In this document: in pieces, positions 3,871-35,160 of the stretch
How the letters are laid out: each line of letters opens with the position of its first letter
Position numbering within the stretch: the first letter of the stretch is position 1
Made by a program: the position numbers and the translations under genes
NCBI GenBank assembly: GCA_913058345.1
Contig: CAJXQR010000017.1
Location: forward strand, 1 to 47,532
DNA from: an uncultured Gammaproteobacteria bacterium
GTDB lineage: Bacteria > Pseudomonadota > Gammaproteobacteria > Pseudomonadales > Porticoccaceae
DNA length: 47,532 nt
Direction: 5' to 3'
Notes under the pieces: generated by a model
Told to the model about the DNA's origin: nothing
Databases searched by the model: none
What the model saw: the letters and a program-made list of their open reading frames with translations, nothing else

Positions 3871-5290
3871 GTTTGCGCTTACGCGCTTTCATGATAAAAA
3901 AGATACTGATAGCCAGGCCAGTAAATACGATTGCCATCGATACACCCAAAGGGCGGGCAGCAGCGTCGGGAAAACGGATAAAGAAGCCTGCGCTGAGCAC
4001 TAGCAATGATAAGCTAAGAAAGCCTTGTAAAGTGGTCGCACTGCGGTGCGCATCTTTTCGATATAAGCAAAAGAGCAATGCCAGAAAACTGATGCTGATG
4101 AAACTCATCAGCGCCGATAGATTGAGTAAAACACTGGCGATAGCGGCGCAAGACAGTGCCAGAGGAAGGCCCCAAACCGTTGCCGTCCAAGCATCGTTGG
4201 CCCAGTTGCGGCCGCCCCGACGGGCCAGCCAAATATTGATACCACTGGCTGCTATGACGGTTAACCCAAGGCCCATGACACTATAAGCAACCCGTACCCA
4301 GATGTTGCCATAGTAGCCAAAGTGTAAACGATAAGTGGAATAGAGGGCCTGCCGTCCCAGCGAACCATCTGCCAAACCCTGCTGGCCAAGATAGTGTCCA
4401 TCAACGGTGTAGCGATACATTTCGGCATAAATCAAACGCTCGGGAAGGGTGGCTCCTATTTCCAGAAATTGTTCGCGTGTTCCCAATTGGTGGGCAACAA
4501 TAAAAATAGGTTCGGCCTGGGGGTGGAGCTCCTGTTGGGTTTCTAATGCACGCCCTATATCCAGTGCCACCACAGGTGCGTCGAGCACGGGATCTGCGCC
4601 GTAAATATCATCGATCAATGCCTGAGTGTCACCGCTGTAAAACGCTGTGGCACTAAGGTAAACGAGTGGGCCAACGAGACCAAAGAAGGCCCCGGTAATA
4701 CCCATCATTAGATAGAAAGGTAAGCCCCACACTGAGAGGCGATTATGGATGTCAGCCTGCTCAAGGCGGCGTGTGCCACCCAGACGCAGCTTAAATGCGT
4801 CTTTGAAAATGCGGGGGTGGGCAATAAGACCGCTAATAATCAGGGCTAGTAACAAGGCACCTAAGCTGCCCGTGATAATTAAGCCGACCGTTTCGGGCAG
4901 ATGTAAATGATAATGGAGCTCGCGCAGCATGTGAGTCCAGCCTTCAACAACGGGTTCACCGAGAGAGCCATCGGGCTGTAAATACCATTCCTGATGGTCG
5001 CCAGAAACATGCATGCGTGGCTGGCTTTCACTGGGAAGTACAACGAACAGGCTGTCGGCAAAGCTGCCAATACGCTGCCGGTGGCCTTCCATGGCGGTGG
5101 TGATAGTTTGTGCGTCGTAGTCAGTAAATTCCGCTACCAGGGGCTGCTCCCAGCGGTCAAAAAATTCAACGAAGACAGCCAGGGTGCCAGTTAAACAAAT
5201 GAGGTAGAGCAGGCCGCCAGCACATAAGCCAATGACCGAGTGGGCGTTTAGTGACGCCTTTACTTGTGTCGGTGAGACGATATTTTTCAT
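3857..5290 (-). CDS. PepSY-associated membrane protein (PiuB-type iron-uptake protein)
   Basis: This is a 477-residue inner-membrane protein of the PepSY_TM/PiuB family, often found beside TonB-dependent siderophore receptors. Several members are inner-membrane reductases that release iron from ferrisiderophores. A first helix (GLCAGGLLYLICLTGTLAVF) is followed by a long periplasmic part, a helix near GLIITGSLGALLLALIISGL, a conserved His region (DIHNRLSVWGLPFYLMMG), and several C-terminal helices. The start overlaps the stop of the upstream gene (ATGA), placing it third in an operon after the receptor and a small membrane protein. Specific substrate and reductase activity are inferences from family and context. 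Confidence 0.75.
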   Translation of the reverse strand: MKNIVSPTQVKASLNAHSVIGLCAGGLLYLICLTGTLAVFVEFFDRWEQPLVAEFTDYDAQTITTAMEGHRQRIGSFADSLFVVLPSESQPRMHVSGDHQEWYLQPDGSLGEPVVEGWTHMLRELHYHLHLPETVGLIITGSLGALLLALIISGLIAHPRIFKDAFKLRLGGTRRLEQADIHNRLSVWGLPFYLMMGITGAFFGLVGPLVYLSATAFYSGDTQALIDDIYGADPVLDAPVVALDIGRALETQQELHPQAEPIFIVAHQLGTREQFLEIGATLPERLIYAEMYRYTVDGHYLGQQGLADGSLGRQALYSTYRLHFGYYGNIWVRVAYSVMGLGLTVIAASGINIWLARRGGRNWANDAWTATVWGLPLALSCAAIASVLLNLSALMSFISISFLALLFCLYRKDAHRSATTLQGFLSLSLLVLSAGFFIRFPDAAARPLGVSMAIVFTGLAISIFFIMKARKRKLSRP

Positions 5291-5835
5291 AAGAATAAGT
5301 AGGCGCTGGAGGCTCCGCTGATTGCAAAAAGAAGTAGACCGTTACGCATCAGCCTACCACTACTGCAGATCCAATAAATGGCTACAGCAATGAGCAGGGG
5401 ATAGACAAAAGCGCCCATGACGAGTTGCTCATTAAGCGCAATGGGCAATAGACTGGCGAGAGCTATTGTCACCAGGCAAGCTGTCACTACAGTGAGCGGG
5501 CCGGCCACGACAAAGGTTGCTACTTTGTGCGTGGTTGAGGTGTTTAACAGTTGTTTGGGTAGGGCCGGGGGTGTTTGCTTTACGGCTCTAAATTCAACGC
5601 CCTTGGTAGTCGTGATCCAGGCGGTAAACGTCAAGGTAAGAAGGGTGTAAATGACCGCAAACTCTATACCGACTCGTTGAGCCCACAGGTTAATGGCGGC
5701 GACTATGAGCAAGCTGGCTAAAGGCATCATCATCCGATGCCTCAAGCCAGGTTTTCTCCAGCCTGTTCGCAGGGCAATTATGGCACCACCCGCTAACAAT
5801 AGTGGCAGCCAGACCAGCAGTGTGTTGATCAACAT
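5287..5835 (-). CDS. Membrane protein of the siderophore-receptor operon, unknown function
   Basis: This 182-residue protein has about five hydrophobic segments (residues 3-20, 37-52, 58-72, 107-130 and 143-180 approximately). It lies between the TonB-dependent receptor (6 nt gap) and the PepSY gene (4-nt ATGA overlap). It resembles in position the small DUF-type membrane proteins that accompany PepSY/siderophore receptors, but I cannot assign a family from memory. The start has no clear ribosome-binding site, which fits translational coupling to the receptor gene. A role in ferrisiderophore handling at the inner membrane is plausible from context only. Confidence 0.6.
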   Translation of the reverse strand: MLINTLLVWLPLLLAGGAIIALRTGWRKPGLRHRMMMPLASLLIVAAINLWAQRVGIEFAVIYTLLTLTFTAWITTTKGVEFRAVKQTPPALPKQLLNTSTTHKVATFVVAGPLTVVTACLVTIALASLLPIALNEQLVMGAFVYPLLIAVAIYWICSSGRLMRNGLLLFAISGASSAYLFL

Positions 5836-8311: not shown

Positions 8312-8686
8312 TTAGTGGGCGCGCGTTCGCGATGTATCGTTCACCGCCACTTGCCCACGGCACATCTGTACCCAATCCATTGCTAATGAGCGATATAAAA
8401 AACGTGGTTTCGAATCAGTGTCACAGCGTACGGCAAGCATGTGCAAATGCTGGTAAACCGCTTCGGCGTACGACTTTTCCTGAGTGAGCGCAAATTTACT
8501 CATCAAGTACATGAGCGATAGTTGCAAGGTTTCCTCGGAAGGTTGTGTCTCATCACTGTTGCCTGAGTCTAAGAAGGCGGTGTTTTTAGAACCGCTTCGA
8601 ACTGAGGTGTCATCGATCTTTGCTGTCGCCGAAGCGCTATTTTTACAGGCCAATGTTTCACAGGCCGACGCTGTTTTTTTCTTCAT
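8312..8686 (-). CDS. Small Fur-box-preceded protein, unknown function
   Basis: This is a 124-residue soluble protein with AGGGAAGGGA immediately before its ATG. The first 55 residues are Ser/Thr/Ala/Asp-rich and probably disordered. The second half looks like a folded helical domain (LQLSLMYLMSKFALTQEKSY, then AVYQHLHMLAVRC and LYRSLAMDWVQMC). From memory, short proteins with this spacing (FAL...HL..LA...LYR.L...W) occur in other gammaproteobacteria in iron-regulated settings, but I cannot name the family securely. A strong Fur-type palindrome about 50 nt upstream predicts derepression in low iron, which fits the flanking iron genes. Confidence 0.55.
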   Translation of the reverse strand: MKKKTASACETLACKNSASATAKIDDTSVRSGSKNTAFLDSGNSDETQPSEETLQLSLMYLMSKFALTQEKSYAEAVYQHLHMLAVRCDTDSKPRFLYRSLAMDWVQMCRGQVAVNDTSRTRAH

Positions 8687-8735
8687 TCCCTTCCCTCTGG
8701 GTCATTAAGCGCTGAATTTTATTAAATAGTAATAC

Positions 8736-8754
8736 TATTGATAACGATTATCAT
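8736..8754. promoter_or_regulatory. Fur box
   Basis: Perfect arms TGATAA and TTATCA flank CGA. The extended site (ATTGATAACGATTATCAT) closely matches the classic Fur consensus of GATAAT repeats. It lies about 50 nt upstream of the gene at 8312-8686, where it would overlap that promoter. Confidence 0.75.
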
Positions 8755-8850
8755 TTAATGATTTGGGTGTGTCAACACTTTTGATCTTTACGATGATTAA
8801 GTCGACCCTGAGTAAATATTGAAGGGGCCTAAAAACCGCAGATGATTGAG

Positions 8851-8879
8851 TTTACCCGGCGGTTTGTGCAAGATATAAT
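8851..8879 (+). promoter_or_regulatory. Sigma-70 promoter of guaB
   Basis: A perfect -10 (TATAAT, 8874-8879) follows a -35-like TTTACC (8851-8856) with 17-bp spacing, 42 nt before the guaB start. Confidence 0.6.
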
Positions 8880-8920
8880 GCGCTGCTTCCTCACTTCCAC
8901 CCACCTTGGAATTAAGCTTT

Positions 8921-10396
8921 ATGCTGCGAATTTCTCAGGAAGCACTGACCTTCGATGACGTTCTACTCATTCCCGGATATTCCGAGGTGGTAGCCACTGA
9001 CGTCAGTCTGAAAACCCGTTTGACGCGGGGCATTTCTCTCAATATTCCCCTGGTTTCCGCTGCCATGGACACCGTTACTGAATCTCGCCTTGCCATTGCT
9101 CTGGCGCAAGAGGGGGGGATTGGCATTATCCATAAAAACCTCACTATTGCGGAGCAGGCGCTGGAAGTGCGGGCGGTGAAAAAGTTTGAAAGTGGCGTGG
9201 TCAAAGACCCCATCACTATTACGGGCGATGCCACTGTTCGCGAATTACTGGCTTTGACACAGGAGCACAATATTTCAGGTGTGCCAGTGGTTGAGAACGG
9301 TGAGTTGTTAGGTATTGTCACCCGCCGCGATGTGCGTTTTGAGAATGACCTCGATGCTACTGTGGCAACCGTGATGACACCGAAAAAGCGCCTGGTTACC
9401 GTGCAGGAAGGTGAACATCCGGATGAAGTGAAGCGTTTACTGCACAAATACCGTATCGAGAGAATTTTGGTCGTTAACGAAAATTTCGACCTTAGGGGCT
9501 TGATTACCGTAAAAGATATCGATAAAGCAGCGCGCTACCCTAATGCTTGTAAAGATGACCAGGGCCGTTTGCGCGTTGGTGCGTCAGTGGGTACGGGCGC
9601 TGATACTGACTCACGAGTTGACGCGTTGGTGAATGCTGGAGTCGACGTCCTGGTCGTCGATACGGCTCACGGTCATTCCAAAAATGTTATCGAGCGGGTG
9701 CGCTCAATAAAAGCTCAGCACCCGGACATTCAGGTAATTGGCGGCAATATTGCCTCAGCAGAAGCTGCTATTGCCCTGGCGGAGGCTGGTGCCGATGGCG
9801 TCAAAGTGGGTATAGGTCCGGGTTCAATTTGTACCACGCGTATTGTCACCGGTGTTGGTGTGCCTCAGGTATCGGCCATCGCCAATGTGGTTGAAGCCCT
9901 TGAAGGGCGGGATATACCGGTTATTGCCGATGGTGGTATTCGTTACTCAGGTGACATTTGCAAGGCAGTCGCTGCGGGTGCGAATGTGATTATGGTCGGC
10001 TCTATGTTTGCCGGTACCGAAGAGTCACCGGGTGAGATCGAACTCTATCAGGGCAGAACCTATAAAGCTTATCGTGGTATGGGTTCTCTCGGTGCAATGG
10101 CCCAGGTGCAGGGCTCCAGTGACCGCTATTTTCAGGATGCCTCGGCGGGTGCAGAGAAGCTAGTGCCCGAGGGGATTGAGGGTCGCGTGCCGTACAAAGG
10201 CCCAGTCTCGGTGATTATCCATCAAATGATGGGCGGCCTGCGTTCATCAATGGGCTACACCGGTAGTCCCGATATCGAAACCATGCGCACCCGTCCCGAG
10301 TTTGTTCGTGTGACCAGTGCGGGTATGGGAGAGAGTCATGTACACGATGTCAGTATTACCAAAGAGGCACCGAATTATCCGGTGAGTGGCGGCTGA
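8921..10396 (+). CDS. guaB: IMP dehydrogenase
   Basis: Inosine-5'-monophosphate dehydrogenase, 491 residues, oxidises IMP to XMP with NAD+, the committed step of GMP synthesis. The N-terminus [16 protein letters not shown] is diagnostic, so ATG 8921 was preferred over an upstream TTG. A tandem CBS pair occupies about residues 95-200 within the TIM barrel. The catalytic loop GPGSICTTR places the nucleophilic Cys at about residue 304. The flap region (RGMGSLGAM) and C-terminal [12 protein letters not shown] are intact. It is followed by guaA in the usual guaBA order, with a hairpin terminator between them. Confidence 0.97.
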
Positions 10397-10527: not shown

Positions 10528-12108
10528 ATGAGCGCAAACCTGCACACCGCCAAACTTTTGATCCTCGACTTCGGCTCACAGTACACCCAGTTAATTGCCC
10601 GCCAGGTGAGGGAAGCTGGCGTTTATTGCGAGGTTCGCGCCTATGATATCAGTGTCGACGAGCTGCGCGAGTTTGACCCTGCAGGCATTATTCTATCGGG
10701 TGGCCCCGAGTCCGCTACCCTAGGCGAAGCACCACGGACTGATGACAGTGTCTTTGAATTTGGCGTCCCCGTGTTGGGTATCTGCTATGGCATGCAGACA
10801 ATGGCAGCCCAACTGGGAGGCGAGGTCTTGTCTTCTAAAGTACACGAGTTTGGCTACGCCAAAGTCGATGTCAGCGGTGATAGTATTCTGCTGCGCGATA
10901 TTAGCGACCACCTCAACACCAATGATGGCAGAGCCCAGCTCGATGTGTGGATGAGCCACGGTGATAGAGTGACTGTCATGCCCGAGGGTTTTCAACTAAT
11001 GGCCTCGACAGGCTCGTGCCCCATCGCCGGTATGTACCATCCTGAGCGGCACTGGTACGGCCTGCAATTTCATCCTGAAGTCACCCATACCTTGCAGGGG
11101 CAGCGTATTTTTGCCCACTTTATTATCGATATTTGCGGCTGCGAAACTCTGTGGACGCCAGCCAATATTATCGACGATGCCATTGAGCGGGTGAGGGCAA
11201 CCGTGGGTAGTGAAAAAGTACTGCTCGGTTTGTCGGGTGGTGTCGACTCCTCCGTGGTAGCAGCATTGTTACACCGTGCCATTGGCGATCAGCTCACCTG
11301 TGTCTTCGTCGACAATGGCCTGCTGCGCAAAAACGAGGGCGAGCAGGTGATGGACATGTTCGCCCTCAATATGGGGGTGAAGGTGATTCGGGTCGATGCC
11401 GAAGATGAATTTCTCGATGCACTCGCGGGCGAAAGTGACCCGGAGAAAAAACGCAAAATTATTGGCAATACTTTTATTGATGTTTTTGATCGAGAAGCAA
11501 CGCGCTTAAAAGACGTGAACTGGCTTGCTCAGGGGACTATTTACCCCGATGTCATCGAATCGGCCGCCTCAAAAACGGGCAAGTCTCACGTCATTAAATC
11601 CCATCACAATGTCGGTGGCTTGCCTGATGATATGAACTTAAAATTGGTTGAGCCGCTGCGTGAGCTGTTTAAAGACGAAGTCAGAAAAATTGGTCTCGAA
11701 TTGGGTTTGCCCTACGACATGGTTTATCGTCACCCCTTTCCCGGTCCAGGACTCGGTGTACGTATTCTCGGCGAAGTAAAAAAAGAATTTGCAGACTTAC
11801 TCCGCGAAGCCGATGCTATTTTTATTGAAGAACTCTACCGTGCTGATCTCTACCATAAAACCAGCCAGGCCTTTGTTGTCTTCCTACCGGTGAAATCCGT
11901 CGGTGTGGTGGGCGATGCGCGACGTTACGAATATGTGGTCTCCCTGCGGGCAGTAGAGACTATCGACTTTATGACCGCCCGCTGGGCTCATTTGCCCTAT
12001 GATTTTCTCGAGCGAGTATCGGGCCGTATTATTAATGAAATACCGGGTATTTCCCGTGTTGCCTACGATATATCTTCAAAGCCACCGGCCACTATTGAGT
12101 GGGAGTGA
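10528..12108 (+). CDS. guaA: GMP synthase (glutamine-hydrolysing)
   Basis: This 526-residue enzyme converts XMP to GMP using glutamine and ATP. The class I glutamine amidotransferase domain (about 1-200) has [18 protein letters not shown] and the catalytic Cys in VLGICYGMQ. The ATP pyrophosphatase domain has the P-loop [12 protein letters not shown]. The dimerisation domain ends with the invariant [11 protein letters not shown] 10528 with GAAGGA upstream was chosen over a TTG 36 bases earlier. The gene is complete, but an IS91-type remnant begins within a few bases of its stop, so its native downstream terminator or partner gene has been displaced. Confidence 0.97.
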
Positions 12109-13865
12109 CAGGAACTGGCAGGCATCAAACATTCACCTATAAAGATAGAGAACATTATGAGAATATTGGTCTCTCCATGGAATGGAGAGCGATATGCCTC
12201 AAGCCGCGATCACGGATCGGTCACCACAAAGCACACCCTATAAACGTCATTGTCCTGAACAGAGACACTTCTCTATCAAATCGTCGAGCGGCATTACCGG
12301 AATTCAGGGAAGTGTTGGCCATGCAGGGAAAAGGCCTTGCCCTGCATGTACAACAGGAATTTGCCGAGTATCTCAAATGTGGCCGTCTGGAGCATGGATT
12401 CCTGTGGGTGCAATGCACCGAATGCCATCATGAACACCTGGTTGCGTTCAGTTGCAAGCGGCGTGGATTTTGCCCAAGCTGCGGGGCAAGGCACATGGCC
12501 GAAAGCGCCGCACTGCTGGTGGATGAGGTATTGCCTGAACAGCCCATTCGCCAATGGGTGCTGAGCTTTCCGTTTCAGTTGAGATTTCTGTTTGCCAGTC
12601 GTCCGCAACTGATGGGGTGTGTGCTGGGGATCGTTTACAGGGCCATATCGTCTCATCTCATTAAGAAGGCGGGTTTCACTCGAAAAACCGCACAGATTGG
12701 CGCGGTAACGCTGATCCAGCGATTCGGCAGTGCGCTCAATTTGAACGTGCATTTCCACATGCTATTCCTCGACGGCGTTTACACCGCTACGCCCTGGGGT
12801 AAAAGTCGCTTTCATCGTACCAACGCACCGGATAGGCAAGAATTGACGGAGCTGGCGCATACGATCAGCCATCGGGTTGCCAGGTTTCTGGAGCGCGAAG
12901 GAATTCTTGAGCACGATGAGGAAAACAGCTACCTGAGCCTGGAGGGTGATGAAGACCCCATGCAACAGGTATTGGGCTGTTCGGTGAGCTACCGCATTGC
13001 CTCCGGGCCGCAGCAAGGGCGTAAAGTGTTCACCTTGCAGACCATTCCGGCCTTGGAAGATGACGACCGTTTTGCCCAGGTGGCGAAAGTGGCTGGGTTT
13101 AGCCTGCATGCAGGGCTTGCGGCACAGGCGTGGGAAAGGTCAAAGCTCGAACGCCTTTGTCGCTACATTACTAGACCAGCGGTATCAGAGAAACGGCTTT
13201 CGCTCACCCCGTCAGCCAATATCCGTTACCAGCTCAAAACGCCCTACAATGATGGGACTACCCATGTCATCTTCGAACCGATGGATTTCATTGCCAAGCT
13301 GGCAGCACTGGTGCCGAAGCCCAGAGTGAACCTGACTCGATTCCACGGGGTTTTTGCGCCCAACAGCAAGCCCGGGGTGATGTAACGCCGGCCAAACGCG
13401 ATAAAGGTCGCGTCCAAAAGGAAAACAAAGACAAAACACCCGAACAGCGCCACCAGGCCATGACCTGAGCACAGCGCCTGAAGCGCGTGTTCAACATTGA
13501 TGTCTCAGTCTGCCCAAAGTGTGGCGGAGAATCGAAGGTGATTGCCAGCATCGAAGATCAGTCGATCATCGATGCTGGCTCACCTCATGAAGAAGGGCGC
13601 GTTACCGCCACCACCTGAGTTGCTGCCGGCAACGCAAGTCTCGCCTGATTCAGGCTGAGTTGCATAGCTCCGGGTTTCACACTTCTCTATACGGCACAGC
13701 AACAGAAGGAAAGGTTGCCTGGCAGCCTTTTTCCCGAACTAGGCCGGAAGGCCAGAAAGGCAGTGGAAGAGGGTTGATTCAGCCGAAAATCTGGGGATTG
13801 AATAGATTGGAGGCCGGAAAGACGAATAGTTCAGGCATATCCAGGTTCAAGTGTTCTACCTTGAT
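12109..13865 (+). mobile_element. Decayed IS91-family insertion sequence
   Basis: The element lies between the guaA stop and the start region of the next operon. It contains a broken IS91-type HUH transposase. A perfect 8-bp hairpin (CTCTCCAT / ATGGAGAG, 12171-12189) sits just before the transposase start. Rolling-circle IS91 elements have no terminal inverted repeats or target duplication, so the ends cannot be fixed. The right end is placed near GTTC/CTTG-like tetramers around 13847-13865 because such tetramers are the usual IS91 targets. Boundaries are approximate. Confidence 0.65.
12194..13618 (+). pseudogene. IS91-family HUH transposase, frameshifted and stop-interrupted
   Basis: The N-terminus starts in one frame (MPQAAITDRSPQSTPYKRHC, ATG 12194). 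It needs at least two indels near 12260-12300 to reach the main frame, whose recognisable part runs from PEFREVLAMQ at about 12297 to 13385. The main part has the Cys-rich zinc domain (CTECHHEH...FCPSCGARH) and the HUH core LNLNVHFHMLFLDGVY. The C-terminus is broken again: a frameshift near 13370-13385, then an in-frame TGA at 13466-13468. Past these the frame continues with a zinc-like CPKCGG motif to TGA at 13616-13618. An ORF starting at 12099 reads through but replaces the true N-terminus, so the protein is very unlikely to function. Confidence 0.8.
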
Positions 13866-13930: not shown

Positions 13931-15676
13931 TTGAGAACAGCCACGATTATAAAAAATTATTTTGCCGTTGCATCACTTTTTCGTGTTGCATTAGGACTCA
14001 GCTTCGCAACGTTTAGTTTTTTAGCTCAATCAGAAGAGCTAGTGAGTTTTAATAATGTGTCTGCCAGTGTTCCCCGTGAGCACCAATGTCAAGCTGAAGT
14101 GAATGTTCGACTAGATGCACCAGAAGAAGAGAGTTATCGCAAGAGTCGTGTGGATATGCAGAAACTCGCTCAAATTGTTAAAACTTATTTGTGGCTTGAT
14201 TGCAAAGAAATAGAATCCATTGACTTTGAGGGCTATACCGAAGGAGATAATGAAGCGCTGTATCGTGCAACGATAGAGAAGAAAAATGATTGGTTTTTAC
14301 AGGAGCGACCTGTTGGTGAGTCTGACGAGGGTAAACAAAAGGAAGCTGAAAAGAATCAGGACGAACAATCTTCTTCTCTAACAGACGCGACCAAAGACAC
14401 CGAGCCTGCCAACGAAGAGTCAGTAAAGTTCCAAGCAGAACTAGCCCAGCAGAATAATTCATCATCAAGCGCTAAAGAAGGCAACCAATTTTCCAGCCTT
14501 GACTCGCTGGAGGCAGCAGCAGTCACTTCCTCTGACGCTCAATTGGAACTCGCCAAAGGCCTTCTGGACCTGCCGGATAAAATAGAAGGAATTGAGTTTC
14601 CAGATGATGCTGCCAGAGGGATAGAGATACTGGAAAAGCTGGCAGCAGAAGGAAACCCAGATGCCACTCAGTTGTTAAGCCAGTCTTACTCCTCGGATAA
14701 TAATATTGATTTGAATATTCCGCTGATTGAAGCACTAACTGGACGGCCTATGATTGATGGCGAGGAGCAGCGCGGCACAGCCTCAGCCATGATGACGCTG
14801 GATGCCGCAGCCAAGGGCAGTGAGCTGGCTGTCGATGCGCTACAGGATGCAGGGCAAGCGGGCTCTAATATGTCTTATTACGCCCTAGGTATGATGTATC
14901 TTTTGGATCAGGCGATGAACATGCCATATGATCAAACATTTTTAGAGCAGGAGTTAGAGATAGAGTCTGATGTTGCGGGTTCCGGTGGAAGCGGTAATGT
15001 CGATGTGGGCTTATATTTTTTGACATTAGCTGCAGAAAACGGCAATTCAGAGGCTCAGGAATTATTGACGGATATGGAAGTCGAGTTTGAAATGCCAGGC
15101 TCTTCTCCAGAGCCAGCCCCAGCCCCAGCCCCAGCCCCTGAACCCTCAAGCGGCTCATCAGGTGAGGTTATCACATCATTACTCAGTAGATCTTCAGCAA
15201 CAGCGTCAGCCGACAACCCTTCAGAATCAGAGTCGCAGAGTAGCGTCCAAACGGGAGAATCGGAAGAGACAGAATCTAATCAGTCAGTTAACCCATCTGA
15301 GGAAAGCGCACAGGCAGGGGCTGTAGCTGCAACAACATCTGTCAGTAATACGGCTGCGAAAAATGAGAATTACACTGAGTCCTTAATGGCCGAGGGAGCA
15401 CTTCATGACGTGCTGGATCGCCGTAACCAAGCTGGCAGTTCTGAACCAGACACTACGACACGTAACTCCATTGCTTCCCCTCAACGACGACCCTCAAGTA
15501 AACCCGAGCTAGGGCCAGAGTCGAAACATAATATTGGTAGTGGTGTGGGCATGCGATCGAGCAGGCAAACAGTCCAAGAAGCGGCTCAGAGGAGGCAATC
15601 ATCGATGCAGCGGCGTGGCCATACAGAATACGGAAATATGAATACAGAACAAAATGAAGCCGAGATTATTGACTAA
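13931..15676 (+). CDS. Exported Sel1-like repeat protein, first gene of candidate envelope-motor operon
   Basis: An exported protein of about 581 residues. TTG 13931 gives a good signal peptide (positively charged start, hydrophobic core VALGLSFATFSFLA) with GGA seven bases upstream; a GTG at 13874 would add 19 residues. The middle has degenerate Sel1/TPR-like helical repeats (AARGIEILEKLAAEGNPDAT and GLYFLTLAAENGNSEAQELL), usually protein-protein scaffolds. Then come a Pro-Ala linker (PEPAPAPAPAPEP) and a long Ser/Gln/Glu-rich, probably disordered tail of about 180 residues. It precedes the TolQ/ExbB-like gene by 120 nt in the same direction. I do not recognise a named family. A periplasmic adaptor for the motor is inferred from context. 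The IS91 remnant upstream may have replaced its promoter. Confidence 0.7.
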   Translation: MRTATIIKNYFAVASLFRVALGLSFATFSFLAQSEELVSFNNVSASVPREHQCQAEVNVRLDAPEEESYRKSRVDMQKLAQIVKTYLWLDCKEIESIDFEGYTEGDNEALYRATIEKKNDWFLQERPVGESDEGKQKEAEKNQDEQSSSLTDATKDTEPANEESVKFQAELAQQNNSSSSAKEGNQFSSLDSLEAAAVTSSDAQLELAKGLLDLPDKIEGIEFPDDAARGIEILEKLAAEGNPDATQLLSQSYSSDNNIDLNIPLIEALTGRPMIDGEEQRGTASAMMTLDAAAKGSELAVDALQDAGQAGSNMSYYALGMMYLLDQAMNMPYDQTFLEQELEIESDVAGSGGSGNVDVGLYFLTLAAENGNSEAQELLTDMEVEFEMPGSSPEPAPAPAPAPEPSSGSSGEVITSLLSRSSATASADNPSESESQSSVQTGESEETESNQSVNPSEESAQAGAVAATTSVSNTAAKNENYTESLMAEGALHDVLDRRNQAGSSEPDTTTRNSIASPQRRPSSKPELGPESKHNIGSGVGMRSSRQTVQEAAQRRQSSMQRRGHTEYGNMNTEQNEAEIID

Positions 15677-15796
15677 GCTTGGGGCCACTTGATCGTCTCG
15701 AAGACATGTTTGATAGAAAATCATGCACGGGTTTCGTGCCATCAACCCAAAGCAATCAAATTAGAAATAGAGTTGAATAATTCACAGGAGTTTTTT

Positions 15797-16555
15797 ATGT
15801 CGGGCAATCATAGTAATGCCAGTTCCCTTGAAGGGGTTTCCGGGCTGAGACGGTGGATAATCTGGCTGATGATACTATCGGCAATCAGTATTGCCGTGAC
15901 ACTTGCATTCCTGTTGAGTGGTACTTATCAGGGGCTAATTAACTGGGCCATGTATATTGTTATCTCAGGCTTGGGGGTTGGTTTGATTGTCAGAGGTTTT
16001 TTTGATGCTCGATTTCTCCAAAATCAGACTGATTTAGCCTCAAGCCAGATTCGGCTTTTAGAACAGGTGGATAATTTTGAAGATTTTTTGAAAAAATCAA
16101 GACCAAGTCTATTCCGTACACATATTGAGAATTTGTTTACTATTTCTCAATCGCATGTGGATATTAGCCAGGATAACTTGATCGAGTTTTTACATACCCG
16201 GTTATTGGCGAGAAATAAAGTAGTGGAACTGTTCTCCAGTATTCTGATTACTCTGGGCTTGATTGGTACGATCCTCGGTTTAATATTGATGATGAATGGG
16301 TTGACTGAAGTGATGGGTAACTCGGCTATGGACGAAAACCTGATTAAAGCTTTAGTGAGCGAGCACGGCCCCTTGTCTGGTCTTGGTGTAGCCTTTTTTA
16401 CGACCCTACTTGGCGCCATATTGGGTGGTGTTGTTCTCCGTGTTTTAACCAGTGTCGTTGATTCAAATATCATGGAATACACAGCACATATTGCCGAGTT
16501 GACAGAAGTGCATGTACTGCCGTACCTGAGGAAAGCCGCAGAGCAAGGGCACTAA
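15797..16555 (+). CDS. MotA/TolQ/ExbB-family proton-channel-like protein
   Basis: This 252-residue protein has four predicted helices (about 19-41, 47-68, 146-168 and 193-220). The cytoplasmic segment between helices 2 and 3 matches the MotA_ExbB fold. Helices 3 and 4 carry the family signature: LGLIGTILGLILMM and LSGLGVAFFTTLLGAILGG. ATG 15797 with ACAGGAG upstream was chosen; the longer frame from 15689 adds non-family residues. In this family five copies surround two MotB/ExbD-type subunits and turn ion flow into rotation (MotAB, ExbBD, TolQR, GldLM, ZorAB). Here the next two genes supply such subunits. It lacks the long cytoplasmic tail of ZorA. Function is inferred. Confidence 0.8.
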   Translation: MSGNHSNASSLEGVSGLRRWIIWLMILSAISIAVTLAFLLSGTYQGLINWAMYIVISGLGVGLIVRGFFDARFLQNQTDLASSQIRLLEQVDNFEDFLKKSRPSLFRTHIENLFTISQSHVDISQDNLIEFLHTRLLARNKVVELFSSILITLGLIGTILGLILMMNGLTEVMGNSAMDENLIKALVSEHGPLSGLGVAFFTTLLGAILGGVVLRVLTSVVDSNIMEYTAHIAELTEVHVLPYLRKAAEQGH

Positions 16556-16623
16556 TTTATAGGTCGTTGGTTATTAGTTGGTTCGTTTGGTGCGTAGGAC
16601 AGACATTTGGATAAGGTTTAAGA

Positions 16624-17541
16624 GTGAAACTTAAACAGACAAAAAGTAACACAAGTTTTTACGAAACGTTTAGTGACTTAATCTTTGCCACCATGGCAAT
16701 TTTTGTGTTGCTGATGATTGTTTTTATGGTGCAAATTAATTTGTCTCAAAGCGTCGATGAACTACTGGAGAAAATTAAAAAAGAAACGACTGAATTAAAG
16801 CACGAGGAAAAAAATCTCGAAAAAAAGAATGAGCAGCTGAGTAAACTGGAAAAGTCGAAGCAAAGTGTCCAACAATATAATTTCGAAGTGGTTATTGCAG
16901 TTGATACCACGGGCAGTATGCAATGGGAGTTGGATCAACTCACAAATACCATAGGTTTAATTGGAAAGATCCTGCCAAAAATTGGCCAGAGCGTGAAAAT
17001 GGGTGTTATTGCCTATCGCCGTGATGAACATAATCGAGCCGACATCAAAGTTTTTCCATTACAGGTCATCAAAGATGATGATACTGACGGTAAAAAAAGC
17101 TTTCGGAAAATACATGGTTTTGTCAGCAGGTTACGTGCGCAGCCCGGTTCAGCCCCTATCGAGGAGGCGATGGATCAGGCACTAAAAATGTTTTCAAACT
17201 CGGAATCATTTACTGGGCATCAGACTTTTATGCTGTTGGGCGATGTGGGGCCTTATGAAGACCGGTATAGAGATCAGCTGATTGATGGGAGAAATCGTGA
17301 GCAGGAAAAAGGAATGATTAACCAACTCAAGTTATGGACAGAGGAAAGCTTGCATAGAAATTTGTTAATTTTGTTTTCAGGCGATGATGAAATTGGCAAA
17401 ACATCAGGTAACCAGCACCAGAAATTTGTGGAGAGTAGAAAGTTTTTCGAACAGTTGGCAACAGAAGCGGGGCAACCCCAAGGATTTACCAGTAATCATG
17501 CTGAAATGATTCCACAATTGCTCTCGGTTATTTTGAAGTGA
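16624..17541 (+). CDS. Single-span MotB/ExbD-like helix fused to coiled coil and von Willebrand A domain (paralogue 1)
   Basis: A 305-residue protein starting at GTG 16624. A short cytoplasmic tail leads into one membrane helix (about 17-37, FSDLIFATMAIFVLLMIVF). Asp18 sits at its start, the position of the ion-binding Asp of MotB, ExbD and ZorB. A charged coiled coil (about 44-83) follows, then a vWA domain (about 87-305). Its metal site begins D94-T-T-G-S98 (DxTxS), with a second Asp in MLLGDVGPYED. In known 5:2 motors this subunit normally ends in an OmpA-like or ExbD domain, so a vWA cap is unusual. The protein should face the periplasm. It is paralogous to the next gene. A ligand-binding or torque-transmitting role for the vWA domain is an inference. 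Confidence 0.75.
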   Translation: MKLKQTKSNTSFYETFSDLIFATMAIFVLLMIVFMVQINLSQSVDELLEKIKKETTELKHEEKNLEKKNEQLSKLEKSKQSVQQYNFEVVIAVDTTGSMQWELDQLTNTIGLIGKILPKIGQSVKMGVIAYRRDEHNRADIKVFPLQVIKDDDTDGKKSFRKIHGFVSRLRAQPGSAPIEEAMDQALKMFSNSESFTGHQTFMLLGDVGPYEDRYRDQLIDGRNREQEKGMINQLKLWTEESLHRNLLILFSGDDEIGKTSGNQHQKFVESRKFFEQLATEAGQPQGFTSNHAEMIPQLLSVILK

Positions 17542-17584
17542 GCGGCTATATATTTGGGTTTTCACTCAAAAGGCTGGTCAAACA

Positions 17585-18523
17585 TTGAAGCTGCGTGATC
17601 AAAAAGAAAGTATAGGGTTCTATGAATTCTTCAGTGACATCATCTTTGCCACCATGGCAATTTTTGTGTTGCTGATGATTATTTTTATTGTCTTAGCTCA
17701 GGAAAGTAGTCCGGCCAGAAAAGCTAAAAAACAAATAGAATCCATCCAGGAACAGAAGGCCGAGGTCATTGCAAAAATTGGCGAGTCTGAGGGTAAAGCC
17801 AAAGAACTGGAATCTGTCATAGATAAGCTGGCAAGAAAGGACATTGAAATAGCGATTGCCGTCGATAAGACCGGGAGTATGGAGCAGGAACTCTATAACT
17901 TGACTTCGGCGATACAGAAGTTGGCAGATATCCTTCCAAAGGTGTCCGAAAGTGTCAAGATTAGTATCGTTTCCTATCGCATTTCAGAGAGCATGAGAAA
18001 TGAAACGGTACTTTTTCCGATGACTCGTATTTTGGATCCTAAGGCAGATGGCGGTAAATCATATCAACAGCTAGTCCGGTTCTTGAAAAATCAGCGTCAC
18101 AAAAGTGGCTTGGCACCAATTTTAAATGCCTCTGAATTGGCTTTATCCCAATTTGATTCATCCCCTGATTTTAAAGGGCATCAGGTGTTTATGTTGTTGG
18201 GTGATGTGGGGCCGTATGAAGAATCAATTAGTGATACGGATAGAATTACCACAGCTGGCGAGCACCGGGCCAACAAGTTGGTTAGTTTGGTTGGGGATTG
18301 GGCCAAGGGGAAGAAGAATCGTAATATGATCATTCTATTCTCTGGGCGAGATGAGGTTTTCCGGTCCGGGTTTGGTTTTGGTGGTGCGCGTCGTCATAAG
18401 CATAAAGTCAGTATGGATTTATTTAAGAAAATCGCAGTGGAAGCGGGGCAACCCAAGGCCTACACTGAAAATCAATCTACTATGTTGGCAGATTTTTTGG
18501 TGGCAGCGCTGAAGCGCCAATAA
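17585..18523 (+). CDS. Single-span MotB/ExbD-like helix fused to coiled coil and von Willebrand A domain (paralogue 2)
   Basis: A 312-residue paralogue of the preceding protein with the same layout. The membrane helix (about 17-37) has Asp18, the coiled coil spans about 43-84, and the vWA domain has MIDAS D94-K-T-G-S98. The spacing from N-terminus to MIDAS is identical in both copies. The start is TTG at 17585. DNA encoding the helix is almost identical between the two genes (about 38 consecutive bases shared near 16682 and 17641), while the vWA domains have diverged. This argues for duplication with selection or gene conversion acting on the membrane part. The pair could form the central dimer of a TolQ/ExbB-like ring as a heterodimer. 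Confidence 0.75.
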   Translation: MKLRDQKESIGFYEFFSDIIFATMAIFVLLMIIFIVLAQESSPARKAKKQIESIQEQKAEVIAKIGESEGKAKELESVIDKLARKDIEIAIAVDKTGSMEQELYNLTSAIQKLADILPKVSESVKISIVSYRISESMRNETVLFPMTRILDPKADGGKSYQQLVRFLKNQRHKSGLAPILNASELALSQFDSSPDFKGHQVFMLLGDVGPYEESISDTDRITTAGEHRANKLVSLVGDWAKGKKNRNMIILFSGRDEVFRSGFGFGGARRHKHKVSMDLFKKIAVEAGQPKAYTENQSTMLADFLVAALKRQ

Positions 18524-18576
18524 CTCGGTTAGCAACATATTACATAACAGGAAAACGATAGAGGCATGAAATTTAA

Positions 18577-19269
18577 ATGGCAATAATCAATAGACCGTCT
18601 AGTGAGGTTGAGGTCAAGCAAGAGGAAGAAGTGCCGGGTATTATTTCTCGCCCTAAAATTGAGGCCGAAGATCACTCTCTCTTTAATGATGTTGAATTGG
18701 GGAAGACAGGAAGGGAGGCTAAATCAGGTTCTGGTCTCGCCTTTTTCAAGTGGTTTAAATGGGTGCTACTTGTCTTGATTTTTGCCGGGGTTGCTGTCTT
18801 TGCCATGCAATCACTACAGGGCGTTAGTCGAGGCCACCAAGTGAATTCGGATAATATTGCTCTGGATGTAGATCGATTAATTCGTATTGACAGTGTTGTC
18901 GCATTGTTGGAAAAGAAGATAGAGCAAAATCAGTTCTCTTTACAGCGTTCAGAAAAACTGGGTGACAAGGTGTTGGTGGACACAATGCGCTTGGCATTGG
19001 CGCAAAATTTGATGGATCTTGAAAAGCATCAAGATAATTTTATTGATGTATTAGTGGGGTTGCAGTCAGATTTTCATTCAAATTCTGAGAGTGTTGTTTC
19101 TGCATTAAGGGCGCAGCTGAAGTCTGGCACAGATAACTACAAATTAGGTCGGGTTGATACCATTAATAAGGTTTTGGCGCTGATTGAGTCTGTGCCAGAT
19201 GACAAGTCGGCCCTCGAATATTTTAATGAGAAAGTAAAGAAACAGAATAAAGGACCAAATGATGAGTAA
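18577..19269 (+). CDS. Single-span inner-membrane protein of the motor operon
   Basis: A 230-residue protein with a 59-residue acidic cytoplasmic N-terminus, one membrane helix (about 60-78, KWVLLVLIFAGVAVFAM) and a helical periplasmic domain. The N-terminal part has two short related motifs (IINRP at 3 and IISRP at 22) that could be docking peptides. Topology (N-in, one span, long periplasmic helix) is like TonB or TolA, the transducers that work with ExbBD and TolQR, but there is no sequence family match I can name. Its last bases overlap the start of the next gene, so the two are translationally coupled. Confidence 0.65.
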   Translation: MAIINRPSSEVEVKQEEEVPGIISRPKIEAEDHSLFNDVELGKTGREAKSGSGLAFFKWFKWVLLVLIFAGVAVFAMQSLQGVSRGHQVNSDNIALDVDRLIRIDSVVALLEKKIEQNQFSLQRSEKLGDKVLVDTMRLALAQNLMDLEKHQDNFIDVLVGLQSDFHSNSESVVSALRAQLKSGTDNYKLGRVDTINKVLALIESVPDDKSALEYFNEKVKKQNKGPNDE

Positions 19270-20071
19270 ACTGACGAGAAATATGTTAAGCAGCGTACTG
19301 TTGGGCGCTTTGGTAATGGGTTCTTCCATTGAGTCTATGGCGTGGAGCCTGCAGGATACTTGGGATAAGACGAAGGACGTGGTGGGGGAAACGGTAGAAA
19401 AAACTAAAGAATCTGTCGGTCTGGACAAGCCTTTGGGTGGCAATAATACGGCTTCCGAACAAAAAGATTTTAGTGTTGCGGAAGACGCTGCTATAGGGGC
19501 AGTCGCCTGTGGGGGGTTGGCTAAGGTTTTGGGTAAAGAGAATGGGACTGTGGCCAAGGCTGCCGTTGCTTGTGGCGCTGCCAATGCCGCTGTTACTGTT
19601 TTAGCGAATCAGGGCAAGAAAGAGTATTCAGAAAAATATACTCAAATTAATAATGATATAGCCACATCTGAAACTGAGATTCTCGAGCTGGAGAAAGAAA
19701 CAGCGATGAATAATCAAAAGGTGTCTTCGTATCAGCGTGAAGTTGATAGTTTGGTTGCGAAAGAAAAGGATGACAAAACATTTCTTGGTAAAGCGGCTGA
19801 TCTACGTCGAGAACTTGATGACCAAATAAGAACGAACAAAATGGCCAAATCCAAGGCAGAGGCTAAATTGGAAATTCTCGATAAGCAGGTTGATGATATG
19901 GATGAAATTATCAAGGATTCACCGGATATCGACAGCCTAAAAACAACAAAAACTGCGTTGTTGGATCAGAAAAAGCGTTTAACGGACTCGGTCAAACAGG
20001 CTAACGGTGTTAATGATACCCTGCTGGCACAAAAGTCCAAACTTGATAATGAGATTATCAAGCGTAGTTGA
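19259..20071 (+). CDS. Periplasmic glycine-zipper and coiled-coil protein of the motor operon
   Basis: A 270-residue protein starting at ATG 19259 (or ATG 19262), overlapping the upstream stop by 11 bases. It has a signal peptide with a cleavage site near SMA-WS. A glycine/alanine-rich segment (GAVACGGLAKVLG...ACGAANAAVTVLA) resembles a glycine zipper. From about residue 122 to the end it is continuous charged coiled coil. It is probably periplasmic or attached to a membrane through the zipper. With the lipoprotein that follows it could bridge inner and outer membranes. No named family was recognised. Confidence 0.65.
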   Translation: MMSKLTRNMLSSVLLGALVMGSSIESMAWSLQDTWDKTKDVVGETVEKTKESVGLDKPLGGNNTASEQKDFSVAEDAAIGAVACGGLAKVLGKENGTVAKAAVACGAANAAVTVLANQGKKEYSEKYTQINNDIATSETEILELEKETAMNNQKVSSYQREVDSLVAKEKDDKTFLGKAADLRRELDDQIRTNKMAKSKAEAKLEILDKQVDDMDEIIKDSPDIDSLKTTKTALLDQKKRLTDSVKQANGVNDTLLAQKSKLDNEIIKRS

Positions 20072-20120
20072 TGGAGTTGTACATAAAATAAAGTAAGTCG
20101 CATGTGTAAGGTTGACCAAT

Positions 20121-20672
20121 ATGCTTTTTTCTAGTGTTACCAAATATACTTTGATTCCACTTATTCTCGTCATGGTGGGGTGTGCCTCTACGAACTGTTC
20201 TACCAACCCGAATGAGGTGAGCCGCTTATGTGCTGCGCGTTATAAGTTAGGGGCAAATCAACATTTGGAAGATCATCTGGCTGCGCGTCAGATGGAAGCC
20301 GACAGCCTCAAGAGGCAAGTTGAAGACTCTAGGCAGGGGTTGGAGGTGAGTCAAAAGCGAGCGTCAGATGCTGCACTAAAATTGGCTGCTGTTGATGCGA
20401 AAACTGCTGCGGTAAGAGAGCAAGCCGATAAAGTTGCTGCAGAATTGAAATTGAAGCAACTTGATATTGACAGCAGGAAAGAGGACTTAAGAGCTCTAGA
20501 ACAGCGTATTGATCAGCTGAAGCGAGCCAAGGGCAATAATCAGGAAACCATTGCCCAGTTAAATCAGGCGCAACGGGATCTTATGCAAATCAAACAAGAA
20601 ATCAAAGTGCTGACAGATTATTTAGATACCGATTTGTTAATCCGGGCAGAGAATGCACTTGCCTATGATTAG
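20121..20672 (+). CDS. Coiled-coil lipoprotein of the motor operon
   Basis: A predicted lipoprotein of 183 residues. The N-terminal hydrophobic segment ends in the lipobox VMVGC, with the Cys as the lipidated residue. No Asp follows at +2, so outer-membrane sorting is expected. The rest is almost entirely alpha-helical coiled coil (about 40-175), rich in Glu, Lys, Gln and Ala. ATG 20121 with TAAGG upstream was chosen over a TTG three codons earlier. By analogy with Pal and CpoB in Tol-Pal it may be the outer-membrane or periplasmic element of the motor assembly; this is inference. Confidence 0.65.
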   Translation: MLFSSVTKYTLIPLILVMVGCASTNCSTNPNEVSRLCAARYKLGANQHLEDHLAARQMEADSLKRQVEDSRQGLEVSQKRASDAALKLAAVDAKTAAVREQADKVAAELKLKQLDIDSRKEDLRALEQRIDQLKRAKGNNQETIAQLNQAQRDLMQIKQEIKVLTDYLDTDLLIRAENALAYD

Positions 20673-20735
20673 TTTTTCATTGTAGGGGATATACGATGAT
20701 TCTTTTTAAAAAAGTTTATTAAGGATAAAGTTTTC

Positions 20736-21167
20736 TTGTTAGCTCTTTTGTCTGTTTTTGTGGTTGATACTTCGGCTGGCGACGGTGTTCCTTTGATGTT
20801 CCTTGAAGGTGAATGGGTTAGCTCTGACTATGATTGTCCTGCAGGGGTTTTCCATAAAAAAGTGGCTATTTCTATTTCAGATAATGATATGAAAGCCGTA
20901 AATGCGGATAGTGAAGGGGATAATTGTGTGTCGACAGGTAGTGATTCTTTTAGAGGGTCATTACCCTCTGAGCTTTCAATGGAACAGGCTCTTCCAATAG
21001 TGATGATCCTTGGATGGCCAAGCAGACCAGCCTGTTGTACAGGAAGAGCCTATATTGTCATGCAAGATGTGGATAATTTTAAGATATGTCTTCAGTCAGA
21101 TTGTAGTCGGCGGGGGAGGAATTGGGACATAGGTTTTTCAAGAATAAAGTTCGTGCCGCAGTTGTAG
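20736..21167 (+). CDS. Small exported protein, start disrupted by a probable one-base frameshift
   Basis: The frame encodes a 143-residue exported protein from TTG 20736, but this start lies in the middle of the signal peptide. ATG 20696, with AGGGGAT upstream, encodes MILFKK and then stops. Removing one A from the six-A run at 20708-20713 joins it to the downstream frame, giving a complete signal peptide (MILFKKFIKDKVFLLALLSV..., cleavage near TSA-G). The mature part has six Cys residues (CPAG, NCV, ACC, ICLQSDC) and no family I recognise. It is followed by a terminator and is probably the last gene of the motor operon. The extra A may be mutation, phase variation or a sequence error. Confidence 0.55.
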   Translation: MLALLSVFVVDTSAGDGVPLMFLEGEWVSSDYDCPAGVFHKKVAISISDNDMKAVNADSEGDNCVSTGSDSFRGSLPSELSMEQALPIVMILGWPSRPACCTGRAYIVMQDVDNFKICLQSDCSRRGRNWDIGFSRIKFVPQL

Positions 21168-24181: not shown

Positions 24182-24330
24182 ATTGGCCTCCGAGGTAAGA
24201 TGCTGTCCTAAAGAATGCCAGGCTGAAATACAAAGATTGTCAAACTTTGTATAGGTGTGGGTTTCTACCTCACTTTCACAGACGACCCTAAACCAGCTGA
24301 ACACTCAAGATCATTTTTGGCCACTTGCCA

Positions 24331-24376
24331 CCGCTTTCTTGGATTATGAACCGCTTTCTTGGATTATGAACCGCTT
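24331..24376. repeat. 20-bp tandem direct repeat
   Basis: The unit CCGCTTTCTTGGATTATGAA occurs twice head to tail (24331-24350 and 24351-24370), followed by a partial third copy (CCGCTT). It lies between the parD gene and the end of the large secreted-protein gene. Confidence 0.8.
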
Positions 24377-29465: not shown

Positions 29466-31172
29466 CTACGCTGGTTTCTGCTGAATTTCCATGCCTCGGA
29501 ATATCGAGCATCGCTTGAAGACATCGAGTTCTAGTTGCGCATTTTTATGCTGGCAAAATTTAGCGACCAGCTTTGTCAGGCCTTTAATGTCGCGCCCCGT
29601 GGCAGTGGGGAAGAGTTCAACCAATGCTTCAATGAGGGCGTCGTCGACATCGAGAGAAAATTGCCGGGTCATCACTTGCCAGATCATACGTCGGTCTGCT
29701 TTGTTGGGTGGGTGATACTTAATCATGGCGATACAGCGTGAAATAATCGCTTCGTCAATATCATCGACTCGGTTAGTGGTGAGGAAGAGCAGCCCGTTAA
29801 AGTACTCTAGAACTCTTAAAAAAACACCCACCACAGCGTTGGCTGCAATATTGTCATCGCGGCGTTTGATGTAGACATCGGCTTCATCGATGAGCATGAC
29901 GGCCCCCCAACGTTGTGCGCGGGTTAAGGTGTCTTTCAAGGCTTTTTCCATCTCGGTAACGCTGAGGCCGAGCTGGCCGGAATGCACGCGATACAAGGGT
30001 CGCTTAATGATTTCCGAATACACTTCCGCCGTCAAGGTTTTACCAACACCCGATGGCCCAGCGCATAGGACAGTGGTACCACCGGATTTTCCGGCGACGA
30101 TATCTTCCATTAATATGTCCATTTCCCCGGTGAGAATATCAATCAGATCGATCTGTTCGCTTGGTAATATGAGTTTATCTTTGAGTTGAGGCCGGTATTC
30201 ATAGGATTTCAAATCATCTACATGCACCCATAAATGATGGTGTAATTCGAGATGAAACATCAAAATATAGCCATGCACGGGCAGCTCGGTAAATACGCCT
30301 TTGGGTATGGTGTCTTTTGACCGTTCTATTTTGCTTTCAACGTTTTCGTTGAAACGATCACTTTTACCCGCTTTGCGTAAGTAGGCATTGAGAATGTCAC
30401 CAGAACCTTCAAAACCCAATTCGCGGTTGCTGATGATACTTTCGTCGTTGACCAGCCTCGCGGCCTTGCCATTAGAGGAAAGAACAACAAGGTTTTTACG
30501 CGACCAGTCGGTATTGCGATGTGATGCGCTAGGGTCTTCGGCATAGTAGCCTGTACCCATTGCGGCAAACTGCCTGCCATAGTCCGCCCGCCAGGAAAAA
30601 TAGCGTTGGTTGGATTCGTCGTAGCTCTGTATTAAATCTGGTGTTTCTTTCAGATAACCCTTGTTAGCGAAAATTTCGCTAACGGTTTTATTGTCAATAT
30701 CTCTACTGCGAATAATAATATTTTCAATAGCGACTTTTCCGCGTGAGTTGGCTTTGATTTCTAAGAGGATACGCCCGGCTTCCTCTTCACCGGGCGGCGT
30801 ATAATCCAGACGGGTTATCACATAGGCAATGGCCTTTGCCGAGGTGTTAACTTTAAACAACCAGCCGCGTATACAGTCGCTTAGCAGGTACTCGGCAATG
30901 GCTGCCAATAAACATTCAAGGTCGTCGACACCAAAACGTTGGCCTTTGTTATGCAGTGCCTTGTGCAATGTGCCCAGTTGCGCGGTGCGGGCTTGCATTT
31001 CAGGCCCAGCGTCAAGATAAAGGTTGTTTAAAAATTTTAACTGCTGGGCAGAAAAATGCTTCGGGGGCACCATGGCGTGATTGCTGAAACGCAATTGTTC
31101 TTTTAATACTGTGATATCTGGAAACTCTGCCAGCATGGCCTCAACAAAGGGGCGTTCAAGTTGTAGTTTCAT
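29466..31172 (-). CDS. AAA+ ATPase with large unknown N-terminal domain
   Basis: A 568-residue cytoplasmic protein. The C-terminal third is a classical AAA+ domain: Walker A GPSGVGKT (about 372-379), Walker B VMLIDEADVY (about 425-434), sensor 1 LLFLTTNR (about 461-468) and an arginine-finger region near ISRC (about 478-481), then a helical lid. The first 360 residues match nothing I know. They probably form a substrate-recognition or oligomerisation domain, with a His-rich LELHHHLWVHVDD segment before the ATPase. AAA+ proteins of this type remodel or unfold partners. Here the candidate partners are the two small proteins encoded downstream. No -24/-12 promoter was found upstream. Confidence 0.75.
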   Translation of the reverse strand: MKLQLERPFVEAMLAEFPDITVLKEQLRFSNHAMVPPKHFSAQQLKFLNNLYLDAGPEMQARTAQLGTLHKALHNKGQRFGVDDLECLLAAIAEYLLSDCIRGWLFKVNTSAKAIAYVITRLDYTPPGEEEAGRILLEIKANSRGKVAIENIIIRSRDIDNKTVSEIFANKGYLKETPDLIQSYDESNQRYFSWRADYGRQFAAMGTGYYAEDPSASHRNTDWSRKNLVVLSSNGKAARLVNDESIISNRELGFEGSGDILNAYLRKAGKSDRFNENVESKIERSKDTIPKGVFTELPVHGYILMFHLELHHHLWVHVDDLKSYEYRPQLKDKLILPSEQIDLIDILTGEMDILMEDIVAGKSGGTTVLCAGPSGVGKTLTAEVYSEIIKRPLYRVHSGQLGLSVTEMEKALKDTLTRAQRWGAVMLIDEADVYIKRRDDNIAANAVVGVFLRVLEYFNGLLFLTTNRVDDIDEAIISRCIAMIKYHPPNKADRRMIWQVMTRQFSLDVDDALIEALVELFPTATGRDIKGLTKLVAKFCQHKNAQLELDVFKRCSIFRGMEIQQKPA

Positions 31173-35122: not shown

Positions 35123-35160
35123 ATCCCCTTGCCAAATTGCATGACTTAAATGGAGTGGTG

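Follow-up and report, generated by a model that had tools for sequence, protein, structure and literature searches.

A predicted TolQ/vWA trans-envelope motor in a Porticoccaceae contig, with a sister form beside toxin-like genes

Described motors and the window cluster

Motors that carry von Willebrand A (vWA) heads were predicted in a recent survey (PMC12204202, Mol Biol Evol 2025), in which TolQ-like pentamers with vWA domains on an Asp-bearing helix were proposed from gene order and AlphaFold 3 models. For this family, the TPH-vWA motors, whose query protein came from Idiomarina, the relevant section describes vWA proteins that occur predominantly as heterologous pairs and without tolR or exbD; it leaves the function open and ends on the remark that 5:2 motors drive systems still to be discovered. 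Gliding was suggested there for the other, TolA-like vWA family. Here we describe a cluster of genes, labelled A to G and followed by a frame H, in a 47,532-nucleotide window (contig CAJXQR010000017.1 of assembly GCA_913058345.1) from an uncultured gammaproteobacterium of the Porticoccaceae. Judged from sequence comparisons, the cluster looks like a TPH-vWA-type trans-envelope motor and a sister form of a machine linked to toxin-like genes.

As in the TPH-vWA family, a TolQ-like gene (B) lies beside genes for Asp-helix vWA proteins (C and D) without an adjoining tolR, exbD or motB, and the vWA proteins form a heterologous pair, as they do at two related loci, L036 and L052. The motor–vWA pairing is not new, having been predicted already in that paper, so the initial annotation's statement that no such system was described falls. 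Its picture of a trans-envelope machine survives in the ion-motor-type ring gene, the Asp-helix vWA partners and the envelope proteins, but not in the lack of precedent. The paper differs from our observations in that its section 8 lists no accessory genes and its main text does not contain the word 'toxin'; literature titles and abstract openings also gave no link of such motors to toxins, which is no proof of absence. What is new here, as read from gene order and homology, is that one branch of TolQ/vWA motors is accompanied by the envelope genes E, F and G, that this branch exists in two forms, and that heads are exchanged on the Asp helix.

All eight frames, A to H, lie on the forward strand where the initial annotation placed them. 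B (15797..16555, 252 residues), described there as a four-helix MotA/TolQ/ExbB-type protein, carries both motifs quoted for it, has four hydrophobic stretches (at about residues 21–39, 47–69, 148–166 and 196–214) and scores above the curated cut-off of Pfam MotA_ExbB (PF01618; 27.4 vs. 22.9 bits), being one of ten matches to this family in the window's assembly. PF01618 was found at E ≤ 0.01 in all ten rows of an alignment of B proteins (window row included), in which T152, T158, T202 and T203 are invariant; the B profile had no match at E ≤ 0.01 among PDB sequences.

C (16624..17541, 305 residues) and D (17585..18523, 312 residues) are 39% identical, and each carries a single helix near the N-terminus, headed by Asp18 (codons 16675..16677 and 17636–17638), and further along a DxTGS motif; in C, a coiled-coil stretch accompanies the helix and the vWA-like head. 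Asp18, the putative ion-binding residue, is invariant in all 11 rows of the C/D family alignment (window C and D included), and the conserved Asp is present in all 25 helices compared across loci, two of them judged by eye. The vWA assignment comes from family-level alignment and profile matches rather than from single-sequence scores: taken singly, C and D match VWA_2 below the Pfam cut-off, while each of the 11 rows matches it at E ≤ 0.01; in the PDB, the family profile hits vWA chains of integrin beta and BatB with E values of 0.002–0.009. The best PDB match of this profile is 3rag (1e-4), an uncharacterised protein, over profile positions 65–152. The Asp helix and the vWA-like head of the initial annotation thus hold at family level, but its metal site looks incomplete, with D94, S98 and D207 invariant and GxAP in 7/11 rows at the position where Thr is expected from the usual pattern. 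C also has a sub-threshold match to MotB_plug (14.8 of 24 bits), and a Pfam scan of A, C, D, E, F, G and H gave no family above its cut-off.

E, F and G encode envelope proteins. E (18577..19269) is a single-span protein, as first proposed, with its span at residues 62–80, and would be mostly periplasmic if its N-terminus lies inside. F (19262..20071) is an exported protein, read by eye as a coiled coil with a glycine-rich stretch. The proposal that G (20121..20672) is a lipoprotein, here a predicted coiled-coil one, gains from its lipobox Cys21, which is invariant in 8/8 aligned rows (window included). A (13931..15676) is an exported protein of about 580 residues with a conserved N-terminal part (residues ~23–123), a second conserved stretch and a long disordered tail; its description as Sel1-like finds no Pfam support in A or in its two relatives. 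H (20736..21167), a 143-residue Cys-rich frame annotated as an exported system member, has no Pfam family. Because it has no hydrophobic stretch above the cut-off used and matches no frame at the nine loci described below, H was rejected as a machine part and probably lies outside the conserved machine. As to the short gaps or overlaps first described, the window has a gap of 68 bases between B and C, vs. −11 to +4 at nine other loci measured.

Other described systems share parts of this plan. Tol-Pal and Ton likewise combine a ring, an Asp-helix partner and periplasmic and outer-membrane parts, but Pfam detects no TolA, TolB, Pal/OmpA or TonB domain in A–H. The TolA/TonB-like vWA transducers of PMC12204202 also place a single-span vWA protein beside an ExbB-type gene; by eye they accompany ExbD-type partners, whereas C and D take the place of these in the window. 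The window's own genome has one such set at C4 (locus L035), with an ExbB-type gene, two ExbD-like genes recognised by eye and a 370-residue TonB-like vWA protein (VWA_4, 9.1e-13), and this set looks like the TolA-like vWA family as that paper presents it.

Zorya, finally, pairs a MotA-like ring (ZorA) with an Asp-helix partner (ZorB), and the best PADLOC models for C, D and B are ZorB (8e-6, residues 6–67), ZorB (3e-6) and ZorA (4e-5). However, the scores lie far below the NCBIfam cut-offs (ZorA 16.9 of 100 bits, ZorB1 13.4 of 400 bits), B has 252 residues vs. 383–1063 positions in every ZorA model matched, the window's heads are vWA-like, and no effector model was found in the cluster or among ten flanking window proteins scanned. 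Membership of Zorya was rejected on these scores and on the absence of effector genes nearby.

Relatives and the two forms of the branch

A contig scan with the C/D alignment alone, which requires exact short peptides and therefore misses relatives, yielded nine loci from 108 pattern matches. B adjoins a vWA gene at eight of these and is one gene apart at the ninth, so the linkage that the initial annotation proposed to look for in other genomes is found. The cluster is beyond chance, because the set of B, Asp-helix/vWA and envelope genes recurs in Gammaproteobacteria, Planctomycetota and Verrucomicrobiota.

The relatives fall into two forms. Form II, comprising the window, L036 and L052, has genes A to G with paired vWA proteins, in the order A-B-C-D-E-F-G in the window and E-F-G-A-B-C-D, the same order turned, at L036 and L052. 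Form I comprises seven loci (L037 to L043), each with a single vWA gene, in the order B-C-E-F-G followed by two further genes, I and J; form II lacks I and J and carries A instead. L037 is from a tubeworm symbiont and L039 from Marinobacter maritimus CK47, of a marine species not known as a pathogen. Some form I loci are interrupted or rearranged: L038 ends within F, and I, J and a 103-residue gene stand at the end of another contig of its genome (L062); the sequence of L041 ends within I; at L039, I, J and a Barstar gene lie on the opposite strand just downstream of the machine; and at L042 a gene of 209 residues separates I from J.

For all three envelope genes, single-sequence comparison gives significant matches at L036, L037, L039 and L052. 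By phmmer, E matches L036, L037, L038 and L039 (7e-13 to 8e-8) and L052 (6e-8), F matches L036, L037, L039 and L040 (1e-17 to 3e-7) and L052 (3e-19), and G matches L036, L037 and L039 (5e-17 to 3e-6) and L052 (1e-12); at L040–L043 these genes were assigned mostly by position, length and topology. The A proteins are joined by matches of the window to L036 (1.4e-17) and of L036 to L052 (1.6e-18).

In a tree built from 29 B proteins (24 belonging to the loci, with L086 left out, and five of the ten from the window's own genome), form II makes one clade (95/93), nested in a larger one (86/81) that also holds form I and L044; the other pairs fall outside. The tree serves for grouping only, its deeper forks being weak and several of its rows long. 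At L044, B and an E-like gene are retained together with the Asp helix, which is fused to a fibrinogen-like domain (PF00147; 6.7e-9, 36.3 bits vs. a cut-off of 22) in a gene at 9001–9870; a DUF922 gene and a gene for an ankyrin-repeat protein lie downstream. Six further loci were found in the order of L040, five of them with an Asp-helix partner and the sixth, L083, with B alone recognised. In the partner at L084 (1993–3432), Pfam recognises a PDZ domain above its cut-off (8.2e-8), in that at L088 (6052–7413) one below it, and in neither a vWA domain. Since a fibrinogen-like domain at L044 and a PDZ domain in a more distant relative stand on the same Asp helix, helix and ring seem to form a shared engine onto which different heads can be fitted. 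The idea that all stand-alone pairs are vWA pairs was dropped in view of the PDZ domains at L084 and L088 and the absence of a Pfam vWA match at L053 and L054; the C/D profile nonetheless matches L053–L057 (6e-8 to 2e-6). The partners at L073 and L074 give weak profile matches (3e-4 and 1e-3). A gene near several of the PDZ-type loci reads by eye as FHA. At L033, a MotA-family gene (588–1400) and a gene for a single-span vWA protein (8585–9424) lie about 7 kilobases apart, and the intervening genes read as FHA and phosphatase.

The cluster is sparsely distributed. A search with C finds 12/58 genomes at E ≤ 0.001, one of them the window's own; in ten of the other eleven the match is confined to the vWA part (E no better than 2e-8, in frames of 371–505 residues) and in the remaining one to the helix. 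B matches 7/58 genomes, its own included, and the other six (E 4e-5 or weaker) all fall outside the window's family. None of six genus-mates searched, one of them 82% complete, has the cluster; five of the six contain vWA matches in frames of 371–390 residues. At E ≤ 1e-8 the C/D profile finds 3/293 genomes of the order, the window's own among them. At E ≤ 1e-25 the B profile finds 7/369 genomes of the class (the window's own, G706 and the five pairs L053–L057) and 4/194 of the phylum of L042 (those of L042 and L043 and two others), and at E ≤ 1e-40 it finds 7/201 of the order of L040 (itself and six others). For the I protein of form I, a profile at E ≤ 1e-12 finds 3/116 genomes in the family of L037 (those of L037 and L038 and G1655, the source of a locus L090) and, in the family of L043, 1/43 (itself). 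Searches of C against plasmids, phage records and viral contigs, and of B against plasmids at 1e-8, gave no match.

The I and J proteins beside form I

I is a repeat protein whose seven form I copies are clear homologues by sequence: they match pairwise by single-sequence phmmer (9e-197 to 4e-6), and a profile from which a given copy is left out still recovers that copy (7e-34 or better). Among 12 genomes, the I profile matches the seven form I genomes, six of which supplied rows to it, and none of the five others (the window's, those of L036 and L044, G706 and G132). J, an exported basic protein, lies downstream of I at all six places where the sequence continues, directly at five and past the intervening gene at L042.

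At L039, the C-terminal part of J is a barnase-type Ribonuclease (PF00545, 1.7e-12), and the next gene encodes Barstar (PF01337, 3.4e-24). The J proteins of L037 and L039 share residues 1–110 (30% identity, E 3e-7; phmmer 2e-10 and 2e-11 in a set of six), and their tails differ; a 103-residue gene that overlaps the end of L037 J by four bases has no Pfam family. All six J proteins have a hydrophobic N-terminus (best 13-residue Kyte–Doolittle value 2.2–3.1), compared with only 0.6–1.2 for the small proteins adjoining J at L037, L062, L039 and L042. Weapons directed at other cells characteristically pair an exported toxin with an immunity protein that stays in the cytoplasm.

J is comparable to polymorphic toxins at some of these loci, a small gene lying beside it at both L037 and L039. 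A common leader with differing tails is seen between L037 and L039 and not at L040, L042 or L043, while a known toxin domain with an adjacent immunity gene is seen at L039, in one of six J proteins scanned. However, no contact-dependent inhibition, type VI secretion or Rhs genes were noticed by eye at form I loci, where a TolQ–vWA motor is present instead, and in the window itself, where the J-leader profile has no match and whose assembly lacks I, no toxin gene was recognised in or near the cluster. The J proteins of L043 and L062 have no Pfam family, and the tails of L037, L040 and L042 J gave nothing convincing in Pfam, NCBIfam or PDB sequences and no match among plasmids. For the L037 tail (14070–14501), two short Listeria phage records that carry no annotation were matched (38%, E 2e-11), so this tail occurs in other settings; the L042 tail matched no phage record, and comparison of L040 J with L042 J gave nothing meaningful.

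At L090, a frame with a J-like leader lies beside a TNT-domain frame (1.8e-26) and a relative of I (3.8e-27). A 738-residue protein of this locus matches the A-family profile over residues 31–175 (1e-8 in a set of eight), and this is the sole link of the window's A to toxin genes. A J-leader profile built from L037 J, L039 J and the L090 leader frame was run against the frames of 18 loci; beyond its three sources it finds L062 J alone, a near-copy of that of L037.

Proposed function, rival readings and genomic setting

We favour, with a confidence somewhat short of even, the reading that the cluster encodes an ion-driven trans-envelope machine, of which form I probably deploys J, the window's cargo being something else or encoded elsewhere. 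Five B subunits would ring the helices of C and D, as a hetero-pair here and a homo-pair in form I; ion flow would turn or pull the periplasmic vWA heads; and this motion would be passed on by E, F and G, across the wall and in the direction of the outer membrane. The work of form I, read from gene linkage only, may be to place, release or push out the exported effector J. For form II, the presence of A without I and J suggests either a cargo that is no toxin or one whose gene lies elsewhere. The initial annotation's list of possible functions (envelope stability, motility, defence, secretion) is narrowed by the relatives beside an exported toxin-like gene, without being settled. A toxin and its inhibitor gene beside one branch give the TolQ/vWA motor family its first testable function: these toxin–antidote neighbours hint that such motors may help bacteria deploy weapons and, if this is true, bacteria can power effector deployment by an ion-driven ring.

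Several observations count against this deployment reading. The proteins scanned include none recognisable as an outer-membrane channel, and at L083 (B gene 4949–5830) no Asp-helix partner was recognised nearby even at E ≤ 10. The support for the clade of forms I and II (86/81) is middling. A Pfam toxin domain is present in just one of six J proteins, that of L039; the J-leader profile misses J of L040, L042 and L043, which were named by position, basic composition and hydrophobic N-terminus, and the tail of L043 J does not look like a toxin. In the window, no frame of at least 40 residues matches the J-leader profile, and I was not found in its assembly by profile. At L090, the A-type match was missed by single-sequence comparison and needed a profile, and no motor gene lies in 19 kilobases around the locus, B not having been searched in the rest of that genome. 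A bolder version of the proposal, in which a new ion-driven deployment or secretion machine couples interchangeable vWA, fibrinogen-like or PDZ heads to a rotary motor of the TolQ type and delivers polymorphic toxins to other bacteria via E, F and G, the window's lineage having been rebuilt with a vWA hetero-pair for other cargo, is doubtful on the present comparisons.

The alternative that survives best, and still seems rather unlikely, is upkeep of the envelope in the manner of Tol-Pal, with a motor that anchors the outer membrane on the wall or moves the lipoprotein, G, and with the toxin-like genes of form I as passengers. Form II, with its envelope parts and no toxin, would suit such a role, as would the peptidoglycan-binding domain in F of L037 (PG_binding_1, 3.1e-13) and the predicted lipoprotein nature of G. 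However, the cluster is patchy (at E ≤ 1e-8 the C/D profile finds 1/398 genomes of a phylum sample, the window's own, and at E ≤ 1e-40 the B profile finds 1/124 of the genus of L039, L039's own, in addition to the empty genus-mates), and I and J follow the machine in three phyla.

Surface motility or adhesion is improbable. In the Agl-Glt system of Myxococcus, a motor drags binding heads, and by analogy the motor proposed here might do the same. The replacement of the vWA domain by a fibrinogen-like one at L044 suggests that the head may be a binding module, and gliding has been put forward for the TolA-like vWA family in the part of PMC12204202 cited above. The heads here, however, sit on an inner-membrane helix and would be periplasmic, and no adhesin or track genes were noticed at the loci. 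Least probable, by a little, is anti-phage defence of the Zorya kind, in which the motor would sense envelope damage and trigger a killing effector: the Zor models as best PADLOC matches, the patchy occurrence and a nearby transposase would fit, but the scores and the missing effector models described above do not, and a form I toxin with an export-like hydrophobic N-terminus next to a small protein without one fits attack on other cells better than suicide.

Returning to the setting of the window cluster, an IS91-type transposase (12099..13385, forward strand; Y2_Tnp 1.2e-37, Zn_Tnp_IS91 2.6e-18) lies upstream as a mobile context and is no part of the machine. The cluster genes have a G+C content of 0.40–0.47 vs. 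0.49 for the window, and this, together with the transposase, fits horizontal arrival without proving it. Two 568-residue frames at 29466 and 33210 were considered as a duplication, which was rejected. Elsewhere in the window are an AAA ATPase with a PADLOC IetA match (29466–31172, 4.5e-13), a frame matching PDC-M72A (2.6e-20) and an ankyrin model (35137–35601), a serpin (36351–37664; PF00079, 7e-48) and a 20-base tandem repeat in 2.3 perfect copies (24330–24376).

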